In this document: in pieces, positions 8,732-12,160 of the stretch
Layout of the letters: every line of letters starts with the position of its first letter
Numbering within the stretch: the first letter of the stretch is position 1
NCBI RefSeq assembly: GCF_029245835.1
Contig: NZ_JAQWOO010000027.1
Location: forward strand, 62,001 to 126,000
Direction of reading: 5' to 3'
Source of the DNA: Algibacter sp.
GTDB lineage: Bacteria > Bacteroidota > Bacteroidia > Flavobacteriales > Flavobacteriaceae
DNA: 64,000 nt
Translations under genes and position numbers: made by a program
Notes under the pieces: generated by a model
What the model was told of the DNA's origin: nothing
Databases searched by the model: none
The model's input: the letters and a program-made list of their open reading frames with translations, nothing else

Positions 8732-11700
8732 ATGAGCTTATTTCAGAACTCTGTTCTAAACAAATATTTAAAAGGATTAGAGTCCGAAAAAGTTAATCAA
8801 GCTTACGATAGATTTACAAGCCATTTCCATAATCCAACCATTCAAGAAAACATTCGAAACTCCAAAGAGGAGCAATACCAAGGCGAATTTCTAATTGACC
8901 TCTTTGTAAACGTATTCGGATATATTAAAAACCCAACGCCTGATTTTAATCTCACAACCGAATTAAAAAACATAAAAGGCTCTAAAAAAACTGATGGTGC
9001 CATTCTAAAAGGCGAAAAAGCACTTGCTGTAATTGAACTTAAAGGCACCAACACCACCGATTTAAGTAAAGTAGAAACCCAAGCATTTGGCTATAAAAAC
9101 AACCAACCCGGTTGTAACTATGTAATTACGTCCAACTTTGAAAAACTCCGTTTTTATATTGATAATGCCGTCGACTTTGAGGAATTTAATCTGTTTCAAC
9201 TCACCAAGGAACGCTTTGAACTACTTTGGCTATGCTTATCCTCAGAATATCTTTTAAAAGACATTCCAAAAAAAATTAAAGACGAATCGGTAACGCAAGA
9301 GGAAAACGTAACCAAAAAACTATACAAAGATTATGCAGCATTCAGAAACGAGATTTTTGATGCCATACAAAACGAAAATCGCCAATACGATAAACTCACC
9401 TTATTCAAAAAAACGCAAAAATTACTAGACCGTTTTCTATTCATCTTTTTTGCAGAAGACAGATTGCTATTACCACCCAACTCCATTCGCTCTATAATAA
9501 ACCAATGGACCGATTTACGAGATAAATATGATGAATATTTCCCGTTGTACGACCGATTTAAAAAATATTTCGGTTATATGAATACAGGCCACAAAGGGCA
9601 GCAACACGATATTTTTGCTTACAATGGTGGTTTGTTTGCGCCAGACGATATTTTAGACACTATTAAAATCAATGACGACTTACTGTATAAACACACCGTT
9701 AATTTAAGTAACTACGATTTTGAAAGCGAAGTAAGCGTCAATATTCTGGGTCATATTTTTGAGCACTCGTTAAACGATATTGACGAAATTCAAGCCGAAA
9801 TACAAGGCATTACAACCGAACAAAGTAAAACCAAACGCAAGAAAGACGGTGTTTTTTATACCCCAAAATACATTACCAAATACATTGTAGATAATACAGT
9901 AGGTAAATTGTGTGAAGAAAAGAAAATAGAACTCGACATCCAAGAAGCCGAATACGAAAAAGAACGTAAAGGCAGACAAAAAGCTACAATAAAAAAGCTC
10001 TCTCAAAAATTAGAAGAATATAGAACATGGCTATTACAAATTACCATTTGCGATCCTGCTTGTGGGAGTGGTGCTTTTTTAAATCAAGCACTAGAGTTTC
10101 TAATTGCAGAGCACCAATATATTGACGAATTGCAAGCCAAATTATTTGGTGATGCCATGATATTGAGTGAAGTTGAAAACGCCATTTTAGAAAACAATTT
10201 GTTTGGTGTCGATATAAACGAAGAAAGTGTGGAGATTGCAAAACTCTCGCTTTGGTTACGCACCGCACAAAAAGGCAGAAAACTAACCAGTTTAAACAAC
10301 AATATTAAATGTGGTAATAGTTTAATTGACGACCCAGCAGTTGCAGGCGATAAAGCCTTTAATTGGCAAACAGAATTCCCCGATGTTTTTAAAGAAACCA
10401 TAAAAAACGCCTATCATTTGGTATTTACAACCCATAACAGTCGTACCTCAAAACGTATGATAGATTATGGCATAAAAAAAGGACCAGCCTTAGAACTTAA
10501 TTTAAAAGAAGAAGTAGCGCTTACCAAAATATTTAGAGATATTGTATTAGAAAACAACTACAATATTATGGCCAATAATATCTGTAAAGACCACGTCCAT
10601 CTTATTCTGGTTTGCGAGCCCGAAGCCCTACATACCATTGCAAAAACACTAAAAGGCAAAAGCTCGTACATATACCAATCCCAGGGGTTTAAACCCCTGG
10701 GAGAACCTCTTTGGTCCCAAAAATTCTTTTTTGCACAGCTCGATGAGTTTGTATTTGCAGACCTTGCCAAAGCCCCAGGATATGTGTTTACCGACAGCTA
10801 TTTAGACACCGCCATAAATTATATAGAAAGTAACCGTAGTAAGCACCATTTGCCACAAAGCGACACGCTAAAAAACACCATTGCCGACTTTACCAAAACC
10901 AAGGAAGACGCCTTTGCTCCAGAATATACCGGTGGCTTTGATGTGGTGATTGGGAATCCGCCTTATGTGCAAATTTCTGAATTTCAAGATTATTATTCAG
11001 AGAATTATTCCACAGCAAAATGTGGGGATTTATATGCAATATTTTATGAAAAGGGAGTTGACATATTAAAAACTGAAGGTGCTTTTTCGTACATAACACC
11101 ATCTTTATTTATTAAAGGAATTAGGTATGAAGCATTAAGATTTTTTCTTTTAGAAAACACAGAAATATTACAAATTGATGATAAAGGAGATGGTGTTTTT
11201 ACAGATGTTCAAATGCCAACCGCAATTTTTGTTGCACTAAAGAATAAATTATCTAATCAAGATTGGTCAAAATATATTCCTGGGGAAAAAATAACTTCAA
11301 GAATGTTAAAAAATTCTTCACATTTAGAAGAATATAGCCTAATTAAAAGAGGACTAGAAATAGGGAAAAACAAAGTACATCCTAACAATATAAATAAAGT
11401 AAAGATAATTACAGGAGAAGATGTTGAACGATATGGTATTAAAAGTTACCAATCGATAGAGAGTCAAATATATAATGAATACAAAAAAGACAATAAGTTT
11501 TTTGAAAGTAAAAGAATCGTTATTAGAGAAACTGGTAATAGAATTACTTCTTTACTCGTTAATGAGAATGTTCAACAAAACAGAAGTTTATACTCAATAC
11601 TATTAAATAAAAAAGAATATAAATATGAATACTTTTTAGCTCTTATAAACTCTAAACTGATGCAGTTTTATTATAAATCAAATTTTGCTGCTAATACAGA

Positions 11701-12160
11701 GGTATTTCCTAAAATTAGAATAGCACAAGTAAAGAAACTTCCAATTAAATTAAGTGAAAATAATCTACAAAATATCTTAATTGACTATGTTAAACAAATT
11801 TGCTCGATTAAGGTTGAGTTTGAAAAATTAAATTTTACTCTTAATTCATTATTATCAACTAAATTTTATATCACCTCCAATCGAAAACTCCAAAACTGGC
11901 ACGATTTAGATTTTGGAGAATTTTCAAAAGAGTTAGAAAAAGCACGAAAAACAGCATCCAAAGAAAACGAAACGGAGTACAAAAAGTTAAGTTTAAGCGA
12001 AGAAGCCGAATGGATGTTATATTTTAACGAGCAAAAAGAAAAAGCACAAACACTAAAAGCAGAAATTAACAAAACCGACCAAGAAATTGATGCCATGGTA
12101 TATGAGTTATATGGCTTAACAGAAGAAGAAATAGCCATTGTAGAGGAAGCCACCGCATAA
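8732..12160 (+). CDS. Type IIG restriction-modification enzyme with inserted Y1-transposase-like domain
   Basis: 1142 residues. An N-terminal nuclease-like domain carries D88...E102-L-K104, a PD-(D/E)XK core. The gamma-class N6-adenine methyltransferase follows: DPACGSG (441-447), GVDINEE with Asp494, GNSLID from about 528, and catalytic NPPY (742-745). The C-terminal part (about 790-1142) resembles an Eco57I/TaqI-type target-recognition region ending in a coiled coil. About 180 residues (554-733) between EFPDVF and GGFDVVIGNPPY are foreign to the fold and look like an IS200/RAYT transposase: YHLVFTTHNSR, HVH at 621-623, Trp in PLWSQKF, Tyr697 in NYIESN. It would cut and modify DNA as a one-gene defence system; no separate S or R gene is nearby. 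Confidence 0.88.
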   Translation: MSLFQNSVLNKYLKGLESEKVNQAYDRFTSHFHNPTIQENIRNSKEEQYQGEFLIDLFVNVFGYIKNPTPDFNLTTELKNIKGSKKTDGAILKGEKALAVIELKGTNTTDLSKVETQAFGYKNNQPGCNYVITSNFEKLRFYIDNAVDFEEFNLFQLTKERFELLWLCLSSEYLLKDIPKKIKDESVTQEENVTKKLYKDYAAFRNEIFDAIQNENRQYDKLTLFKKTQKLLDRFLFIFFAEDRLLLPPNSIRSIINQWTDLRDKYDEYFPLYDRFKKYFGYMNTGHKGQQHDIFAYNGGLFAPDDILDTIKINDDLLYKHTVNLSNYDFESEVSVNILGHIFEHSLNDIDEIQAEIQGITTEQSKTKRKKDGVFYTPKYITKYIVDNTVGKLCEEKKIELDIQEAEYEKERKGRQKATIKKLSQKLEEYRTWLLQITICDPACGSGAFLNQALEFLIAEHQYIDELQAKLFGDAMILSEVENAILENNLFGVDINEESVEIAKLSLWLRTAQKGRKLTSLNNNIKCGNSLIDDPAVAGDKAFNWQTEFPDVFKETIKNAYHLVFTTHNSRTSKRMIDYGIKKGPALELNLKEEVALTKIFRDIVLENNYNIMANNICKDHVHLILVCEPEALHTIAKTLKGKSSYIYQSQGFKPLGEPLWSQKFFFAQLDEFVFADLAKAPGYVFTDSYLDTAINYIESNRSKHHLPQSDTLKNTIADFTKTKEDAFAPEYTGGFDVVIGNPPYVQISEFQDYYSENYSTAKCGDLYAIFYEKGVDILKTEGAFSYITPSLFIKGIRYEALRFFLLENTEILQIDDKGDGVFTDVQMPTAIFVALKNKLSNQDWSKYIPGEKITSRMLKNSSHLEEYSLIKRGLEIGKNKVHPNNINKVKIITGEDVERYGIKSYQSIESQIYNEYKKDNKFFESKRIVIRETGNRITSLLVNENVQQNRSLYSILLNKKEYKYEYFLALINSKLMQFYYKSNFAANTEVFPKIRIAQVKKLPIKLSENNLQNILIDYVKQICSIKVEFEKLNFTLNSLLSTKFYITSNRKLQNWHDLDFGEFSKELEKARKTASKENETEYKKLSLSEEAEWMLYFNEQKEKAQTLKAEINKTDQEIDAMVYELYGLTEEEIAIVEEATA
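10391..10930 (+). mobile_element. IS200/RAYT-like Y1 (HUH) domain embedded in the R-M gene
   Basis: In-frame segment encoding residues 554-733 of the R-M protein. It has the order expected of REP-associated tyrosine transposases: a first beta-strand YHLVFTTHN, the metal-binding HVHLIL motif, a KGKSS helix, PLWSQKFF, and a C-terminal helix with a Tyr in NYIESNRSKHHL. The reading frame is intact through both junctions, so it is a domain of the protein and not a disruption. No flanking repeats or target duplication were seen. Confidence 0.75.
10679..10702. repeat. Perfect 24-bp palindrome inside the Y1 domain
   Basis: TCCCAGGGGTTT followed by its exact reverse complement AAACCCCTGGGA. It is translated in frame as part of SQGFKPLGEP, in the loop between the KGKSSYIY helix and the PLWSQKF motif. 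REP-like hairpins are the usual DNA substrates of RAYT enzymes, which makes its place notable. Confidence 0.95.

Follow-up and report, generated by a model that had tools for sequence, protein, structure and literature searches.

The type IIG gene and its inserted domain

The window, meaning the whole 64-kb stretch of DNA analysed here, carries an open reading frame at 8732-12160 on the forward strand that encodes 1142 aa with zero internal stops. The protein was matched by the PADLOC model PDLC03609 (REase_MTase_IIG, 1344 bits) and contains the Pfam domains Eco57I, MmeI_Mtase and TaqI_C. The features discussed below are as follows.

8732-12160, + strand: intact gene for a type IIG restriction-modification enzyme of 1142 aa (PADLOC and Pfam)
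8993-9043, + strand: presumed PD-(D/E)xK nuclease motif, D88 ... E102-L-K104, invariant in alignment A2
10052-10072, + strand: methyltransferase motif I, DPACGSG, residues 441-447, invariant in alignment A2
10391-10930, + strand: Y1 HUH transposase domain present as an insert of 180 aa, residues 554-733 (Pfam, NCBIfam, PDB, AlphaFold, empty sites)
10592-10600, + strand: HUH motif HVH, residues 621-623, both His invariant
10679-10702, + strand: 24-bp perfect palindrome TCCCAGGGGTTTAAACCCCTGGGA inside the Y1 domain, in the loop that precedes PLWSQKF, with the in-frame translation SQGFKPLG
10712-10723, + strand: W-S-Q-K, residues 661-664, within PLWSQKF (W and K 87/87, Q 86/87)
10820-10834, + strand: putative catalytic Tyr697 with Asn701 (YIESN), both 87/87
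10955-10966, + strand: methyltransferase motif IV, NPPY, residues 742-745, directly 3' of the insert (alignment A2)
11402-11746, + strand: TaqI_C-like specificity domain, residues 891-1005 (Pfam PF12950, E 1.2e-18)

In alignment A2, which holds 47 full-length Y1-bearing IIG proteins, D88, E102 and K104, which we take to be a PD-(D/E)xK nuclease motif, are invariant, as are N742, P743 and P744 of motif IV, with Y745 kept in at least 90%. The top Foldseek matches of a full-length AlphaFold model (pLDDT 81) were BrxX/PglX, CamA, M.BseCI and MmeI. Architecture and motifs are like those of the MmeI/Eco57I-type IIG enzymes (PDLC03609, PDLC03598), and the window protein is predicted to be a type IIG enzyme in which a fused PD-ExK nuclease, an N6-adenine methylase and a TRD share one chain.

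The first-pass annotation had proposed that about 180 residues between methyltransferase motifs III and NPPY, with the frame intact, form a Y1-transposase-like segment in the core of this enzyme, and had staked the proposal on a Y1_Tnp profile match and on conservation of the HUH motif and the helix Tyr. The borders proved to be exact at residues 554-733 (10391-10930), between motifs III and IV and in frame on both sides, and the insert alone matches Pfam Y1_Tnp (PF01797) with an E of 1.8e-10 (41.4 bits against a cut-off of 23). With its HUH motif, single Tyr and modelled Y1 fold, it qualifies as a Y1 HUH transposase domain in the sense of PF01797. The NCBIfam IS200 transposase model NF033573 also matches it (E 9e-13) at about 48.5-48.7 bits, under the cut-off of 55, and the PDB transposase chains 2xo6/2xm3/2xma match with an E of about 2e-5. 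For the NCBIfam RAYT model NF047646 the window domain scores 21.8 bits, under the cut-off of 80, and 26 of the 26 members of A3 match that model with E up to 0.01 (best 4e-16). By these profiles, the domain is a formal member of neither RAYT nor IS200. When a model of the insert alone (pLDDT 85.5) was compared with PDB folds, the best 28 matches were all IS200/IS605-like transposase chains; 4er8, a REP-associated tyrosine transposase with a bound REP hairpin, ranked 29th.

HVH, PLWSQKF and the helix Tyr697, which the first-pass annotation had named as the working parts, are all present and conserved. All 87 aligned Y1 rows have both HUH His, W661, K664, Tyr697, Asn701 and H705, and Q663 and K704 are each kept in 86 of them, in a set of relatives for which the HUH motif was part of one of the two search patterns and Tyr697 and Asn701 of neither. 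Tyr697 sits in a modelled helix (AlphaFold, residues 688-704). Neither the IIG half nor the Y1 half shows sequence signs of being dead. In the reading that we favor, the insert is a Y1 HUH nuclease from an IS200/RAYT-like lineage that looks catalytically intact. An HUH nuclease is thereby added to the known components of restriction enzymes, and an adenine methylase is seen to tolerate a large extra domain beside its motif IV.

Empty sites and recurrence of the Y1 domain

Alignment with IIG homologues that lack the insert places 2 residues where it stands. In L110, which is 93% identical to the window protein over residues 1-553, the site reads EFPEVF-AK-GGFDVVIGNPPY. The spacing from GNSL to NPPY is 29-36 residues in 12 of 13 genes without the insert and 45 in the remaining one, versus more than 200 residues with it. 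Three orthologue pairs with and without the insert, namely L057/L120 (N-half 0.81 and TRD half 0.82 identical), L093/L115 (0.84 and 0.84) and L070/L123 (0.87 and 0.62), all have an in-frame junction at the same place in the DNA. L072, which belongs to a different IIG subfamily, carries Y1 at the equivalent place (VFEK-GGFDIVIGNPPY). The window gene, L010 and L110 share 93% identity in the N-half, and their Y1 domains are only 39% identical (window and L010) or absent (L110).

Genes of this kind are rare. Among 299 family genomes the insert alone matched 6, and among 395 genomes of the phylum sample it again matched 6, the genome of the window included in both counts, and every match lies in an ORF of at least 621 aa, ORF length being the sole basis on which the five new phylum matches were judged. 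Scanning genome contigs gave 127 Y1 relatives, and the best 80 were kept. Among these best 80 of 127, 56 lie in IIG-like ORFs longer than 400 aa and 24 are stand-alone short ORFs, a ratio that is biased because the query alignment came mostly from embedded forms. NPPY follows the Y1 match in 54 of the 56 IIG-like ORFs, and the remaining two run off the contig end. Viral contigs, searched with a single-sequence query, yielded no relative, the plasmid and phage collections gave no match, and PHROGs gave one generic transposase family. Two Bacteroidota-like Y1-IIG genes, L029 and L072, stand in records labelled Thermus/Deinococcus group and Candidatus Methylomirabilis, which may reflect mis-binning or wide transfer.

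A Y1 tree of 88 rows calls for 8 changes among embedded, stand-alone and CobB forms, of which at least 4-5 are forced by well supported branches. The tree excludes L011/L111 (frameshift in the Y1 loop) as well as L044 and L062 (stop codons in the match), and its 65 embedded rows amount to 62 distinct genes because L121, L125 and L126 are identical to L057, L070 and L076. The CobB form is L013, a CobB/CbiA-like protein whose C-terminus bears a fused Y1 domain. The Y1 domain of the window belongs to a 19-row group (14 of the rows stand-alone, 5 embedded) with a support of 100; most records in this group are labelled Saprospiraceae. Same-site capture across several Y1 lineages, with the IIG motifs kept, is what the alignments and the tree show at the level of sequence, and by the same comparison the Y1 domain is a recurrent module, captured repeatedly at one IIG site.

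The suggestion of the first-pass annotation that this is a domesticated transposase is uncertain, and the repeated capture at one site together with the CobB fusion fits a still-mobile module at least as well. In its full form, domestication would mean that the domain acts on invading DNA, nicking it or holding it in single-stranded or hairpin form, and that the palindromes described below are leftovers. The joint conservation of the key nuclease, methylase and Y1 residues and the presence of one such gene in the window genome are in keeping with it. Nevertheless, we consider it unlikely: orthologous IIG genes exist without Y1, the tree requires repeated gain or loss, Y1 also occurs in CobB, and the palindromes are dense and mostly well kept, not decayed. 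A role in restriction cleavage or self-recognition, which had also been put forward, drew support from none of the evidence.

Palindromes in restriction genes

The palindrome at 10679-10702 is the sole one in the 64-kb window when arms of at least 9, each with 4 or more G/C, and a loop no longer than 3 are required. Of 1000 shuffles of the insert, 1 reached an arm length of 12, that of this palindrome. A single copy of AGGGGYTNNARCCCCT is present in the genome of the window, in the Y1 gene. This palindrome and its link to in-gene palindromes elsewhere escaped the first-pass annotation and became the main clue of the present analysis.

Other Y1-IIG genes carry copies of CAAGGGG..CCCCTTG in the loop equivalent to that of the window, and across the relatives the form CAAGGG(G)-core-(C)CCCTTG recurs in this loop and in other linkers. 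Altogether, 118 palindromes were found in 192 kb of IIG-Y1 ORFs, where dinucleotide shuffles expect 3.4, versus 37 in 494 kb of flanks, and at least one is present in 54 of 56 ORFs. The pattern CAAKGGN8CCMTTG, i.e., CAA(G/T)GG...CC(A/C)TTG, fits 103 of the 118, in 50 of the 56 ORFs, and 16 of the 37 flank palindromes; the other 15 ORF palindromes are mostly close variants with a few unrelated. The 13 MmeI/Eco57I-type IIG genes without Y1 that were examined as a control (40 kb) held 0 family palindromes and 1 unrelated, and 12 of the 24 stand-alone Y1 ORFs are without any ORF palindrome. Palindromes are tied to Y1-IIG genes, where they are read in frame, and are of low copy elsewhere.

The 118 copies of the strict pattern, a different set from the 118 ORF palindromes with a coincidentally equal total, fall into the three reading frames as 74, 40 and 4, and therefore it is the DNA that is conserved and not one peptide. 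Among 118 in-gene copies, 3 have a GTAG within 10 nt of the palindrome foot, as do 4 among 53 copies outside the genes. On the coding strand, the feet are commonly [TC]AA-CAAGGGG...CCCCTTG-TC[AGC]. In non-duplicate genes the -2/+2 foot is AC in 46 cases and GT in 4, and copies outside show no such strand bias (AC 9, GT 6; n=79). This strong one-strandedness within genes would suit mRNA hairpins that act in pausing or autoregulation and are bound by Y1 without any DNA chemistry. We regard that explanation as very unlikely, since the Tyr and metal ligands of HUH enzymes serve DNA chemistry, which their conservation here would imply, and since many of the outside copies are intergenic.

The palindromes vary together with the domain that carries them. 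Compared with L029 at the same site, the window copy carries a paired change, from CAAGGGG..CCCCTTG to CCAGGGG..CCCCTGG, again a sign that DNA and not one peptide is conserved. L010 has a palindrome read as SRGLNPLAT where the window, with an N-half 92% identical, has KGEK; genes whose N-halves are 92% identical lack this palindrome there, which points to a palindrome gain. Core class tracks the Y1 tree, on which it changes 30 times, whereas shuffling gives a mean of 49 (27 against 38 in a non-redundant set). When Y1 identity was compared with palindrome core in a Mantel test, the correlation was weak (r 0.094, p 0.06; partial r 0.138, p 0.03), and the tree-based count is clearer than this plain test. 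A further alternative is chance or an inherited fossil, with one old insertion and one palindrome spread by transfer of the IIG gene. Apart from the rarity of Y1-IIG genes (the 6 of 395 phylum-sample genomes, own included), the evidence speaks against it: different Y1 lineages sit in IIG backbones more than 90% identical, many genes hold several palindromes (up to 10-11), and the core found at one and the same site differs from gene to gene. It is contradicted by both tree and empty sites unless recombination explains everything, and we hold it to be extremely improbable.

Beyond the Y1 genes, the copies are few. In the 299 family genomes, with the four that carry terminator-like copies set aside, the CAAGGGG..CCCCTTG type was found in 5 of 5 other Y1 genomes, mostly within the IIG gene itself, and in 1 of 293 without Y1. 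A reading as Rho-independent terminators was checked in ten genomes found by the looser pattern AAGGGG..CCCCTT and rejected; terminator-like copies with A/T runs occur in four of them (G092, G133, G280 and G288), which were set aside, and the CAAGGGG..CCCCTTG type was retained. Of 31 Y1 genomes, 30 have between 1 and 39 matches to CAAKGGN8CCMTTG, some of which are due to chance, versus 0-2 for a reversed-pattern control. The remaining genome, that of the window, has 0 and holds the CCAGGGG variant alone, in the gene. A genome-wide, high-copy REP is ruled out by these numbers.

Among 8 family-type copies examined outside the IIG gene in G306 and G310, 6 lie outside any 60-aa ORF, and the other 2 lie in an 86-aa frame and in a long ORF resembling isoleucyl-tRNA synthetase; in G227, 4 of 4 copies are in the IIG gene. 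The parts of G323 and G316 that were examined contain at least 10 clearly coding copies outside the Y1 gene. Of the 10 among those listed, 9 fall in four type IIG genes of the MmeI-like sort that lack Y1 (L130, L138, L140 and L143) and 1 in a C39 peptidase ABC transporter (L145). Other copies in these two genomes are intergenic or in frames judged by eye; those called non-coding or upstream of a start lie close to the ends of stop-to-stop frames 114-779 aa long or in short frames. All four of the MmeI-like genes carry family palindromes in frame, and L130 and L138 are paralogues that share a contig and whose TRD halves have diverged.

Within Y1-IIG genes, the density of palindromes is uneven. 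In 53 genes, Y1 (32 kb in all) holds 62, the C-terminal tail (19 kb) 14, the N-half (90 kb) 23 and the half from NPPY to the tail (40 kb) 1; this set leaves out near-duplicates, genes without both GNSL and NPPY, and the window, the last because its CCAGGGG variant is unmatched by the pattern. A specificity-cassette device, in which the Y1 nuclease and flanking palindromes exchange TRD modules between IIG genes, would produce such a layout, with palindromes dense in Y1, present in tail and N-half, and nearly absent between NPPY and the tail. The copies at residues 492 and 942 of the MmeI-like L130 flank its methylase/TRD half, and many gene pairs share the N-half and not the TRD half, several of them also sharing the tail. 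This geometry is suggestive. However, the identity breakpoints of L130 and L138 are not at the palindromes but ~75-100 bp away, the palindrome of L140 lies within the methylase domain, its counterpart in L143 is decayed, and intolerance of the folded half would yield the same pattern. TRD-half exchange was rejected as proof of cassette swapping, since it also occurs without Y1 (L120/L127: N 0.92, T 0.31). We think a device of this kind rather improbable. The wider proposal, equally doubtful in our judgement, is that an HUH nuclease sows hairpins through restriction genes, brackets the specificity half while sparing it and so helps to rebuild or exchange specificities. If true, bacterial immunity would have a diversification system driven by a transposase.

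L076, L086 and L097 carry tandem half-repeats or have repeats next to their palindromes, a sign that the palindrome loops are unstable. In the L097 ORF (1178 aa), a long tandem-repeat expansion (ENSPLP..., NKGDESYYHNQGG...) covers residues about 495-690, between the Y1 catalytic helix and GGFDVV and adjoining palindromes, and forms a hypervariable stretch in a restriction enzyme. At L011:3609-4218, the Y1 domain of the IIG gene is frameshifted near a partly duplicated loop palindrome.

A nuclease and hairpin pair, and known systems

The explanation we favor, with somewhat better than even confidence, is a REP/RAYT-like pair living in restriction genes, in which the Y1 HUH nuclease is matched with a short REP-like hairpin, CAAGGGG-core-CCCCTTG and its variants. 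The Y1 domain, or a free Y1 relative, would bind the hairpin as single-stranded DNA, and Tyr697 would cut and rejoin it. This cutting and joining would copy or move palindromes, mainly in cis into the gene's own sequence, and in-frame copies would survive in tolerant linkers. The restriction enzyme would stay functional and would provide passenger selection and horizontal transfer. Of the roles suggested by the first-pass annotation, spreading is the one that gains support, because palindromes are linked to the domain and because orthologous IIG genes are polymorphic for its presence, with movement and Y1 activity themselves being what we infer from these patterns. The low number of copies per genome counts against the pair, as does the window genome with its one variant in the gene. 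So does the rarity of palindromes on both sides of the Y1 insert: near its borders, the strict pattern lies 5' in 5, 3' in 21 and on both sides in 3 of 61 Y1-IIG genes, duplicates included. The missed NCBIfam cut-offs, the scarcity of GTAG, the weak Mantel correlation and the half of the stand-alone Y1 ORFs (12 of 24) that hold no palindrome weigh on the same side.

Known REPtrons, in which TnpA_REP and REP co-evolve, likewise consist of a Y1 HUH nuclease with cognate, co-varying short palindromes, as outlined in PMC8266576. We observe the same here, with palindromes that are tied to the gene and co-vary with it, the Mantel signal being weak. The differences are that the domain lies inside a restriction enzyme, that the palindromes are in frame within that gene, that GTAG is mostly lacking, that copies per genome are few and that the score is below the NCBIfam RAYT cut-off. 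We call the domain RAYT-like in behavior, and not RAYT, because NCBIfam cut-offs are missed and GTAG is mostly absent. IS200/IS605 TnpA (ISDra2, IS608) gives the top fold and sequence matches to the insert. In contrast to these elements, the window insert has no palindrome at its borders, so no subterminal hairpins of the IS200/IS605 type, and is present in one copy in the genome, below the NCBIfam cut-off.

The TnpA survey, as far as its subclass descriptions go, reports REPs inserted in the transposase gene for TnpA_Y1 subclass 2.4, in Cyanobacteria and Bacteroidetes among other phyla (PMC6006769). That subclass has the motifs NH[IFV]H and YIxNNP, whereas those found here are DH[IV]H and YIxxNRxKH. 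Subclass 1.2 shares DH[IV]H and is described with WQ, Y---Q--HH and a specific C-terminal domain, in low copy, mostly in Cyanobacteria/Bacteroidetes and generally without IS ends (PMC6006769); set against this description, our domain differs in having Asn for Gln after the Tyr (Y---N--KH). The description of subclass 1.2 in the part of PMC6006769 used here mentions no link to IIG enzymes. According to the same source, a few unexpectedly long proteins were discarded from the survey as gene fusions or annotation errors. Titles and abstract openings of the PMC papers listed, a scope outside which most subscription papers fall, yielded no Y1/RAYT domain inside a restriction enzyme.

Intragenic palindromes such as the Rickettsia palindromic elements and GTAG/CGTC REPs are read in frame inside genes, which in the account of PMC3733652 are varied and include many for DNA repair. 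The coding targets seen here are, in contrast, mostly restriction genes, and the putative mover lies in the same gene. This places a candidate mover and its palindromes together, and their pairing may explain how palindromes spread through restriction genes. For REP-like palindromes in frame within protein genes, we know of no mover shown so far. With mover and palindromes in one gene and natural empty sites as controls, the question is therefore directly testable.

One palindrome of the CobB fusion also lies at a domain border. At L013:7899-9761 (-), CCAATGGGTTTCAACCCATTGG is found at the junction of Y1 and the CobB/CbiA-like cobyrinate synthase, and a second palindrome lies ~5.6 kb further, among apparent cobalamin genes.
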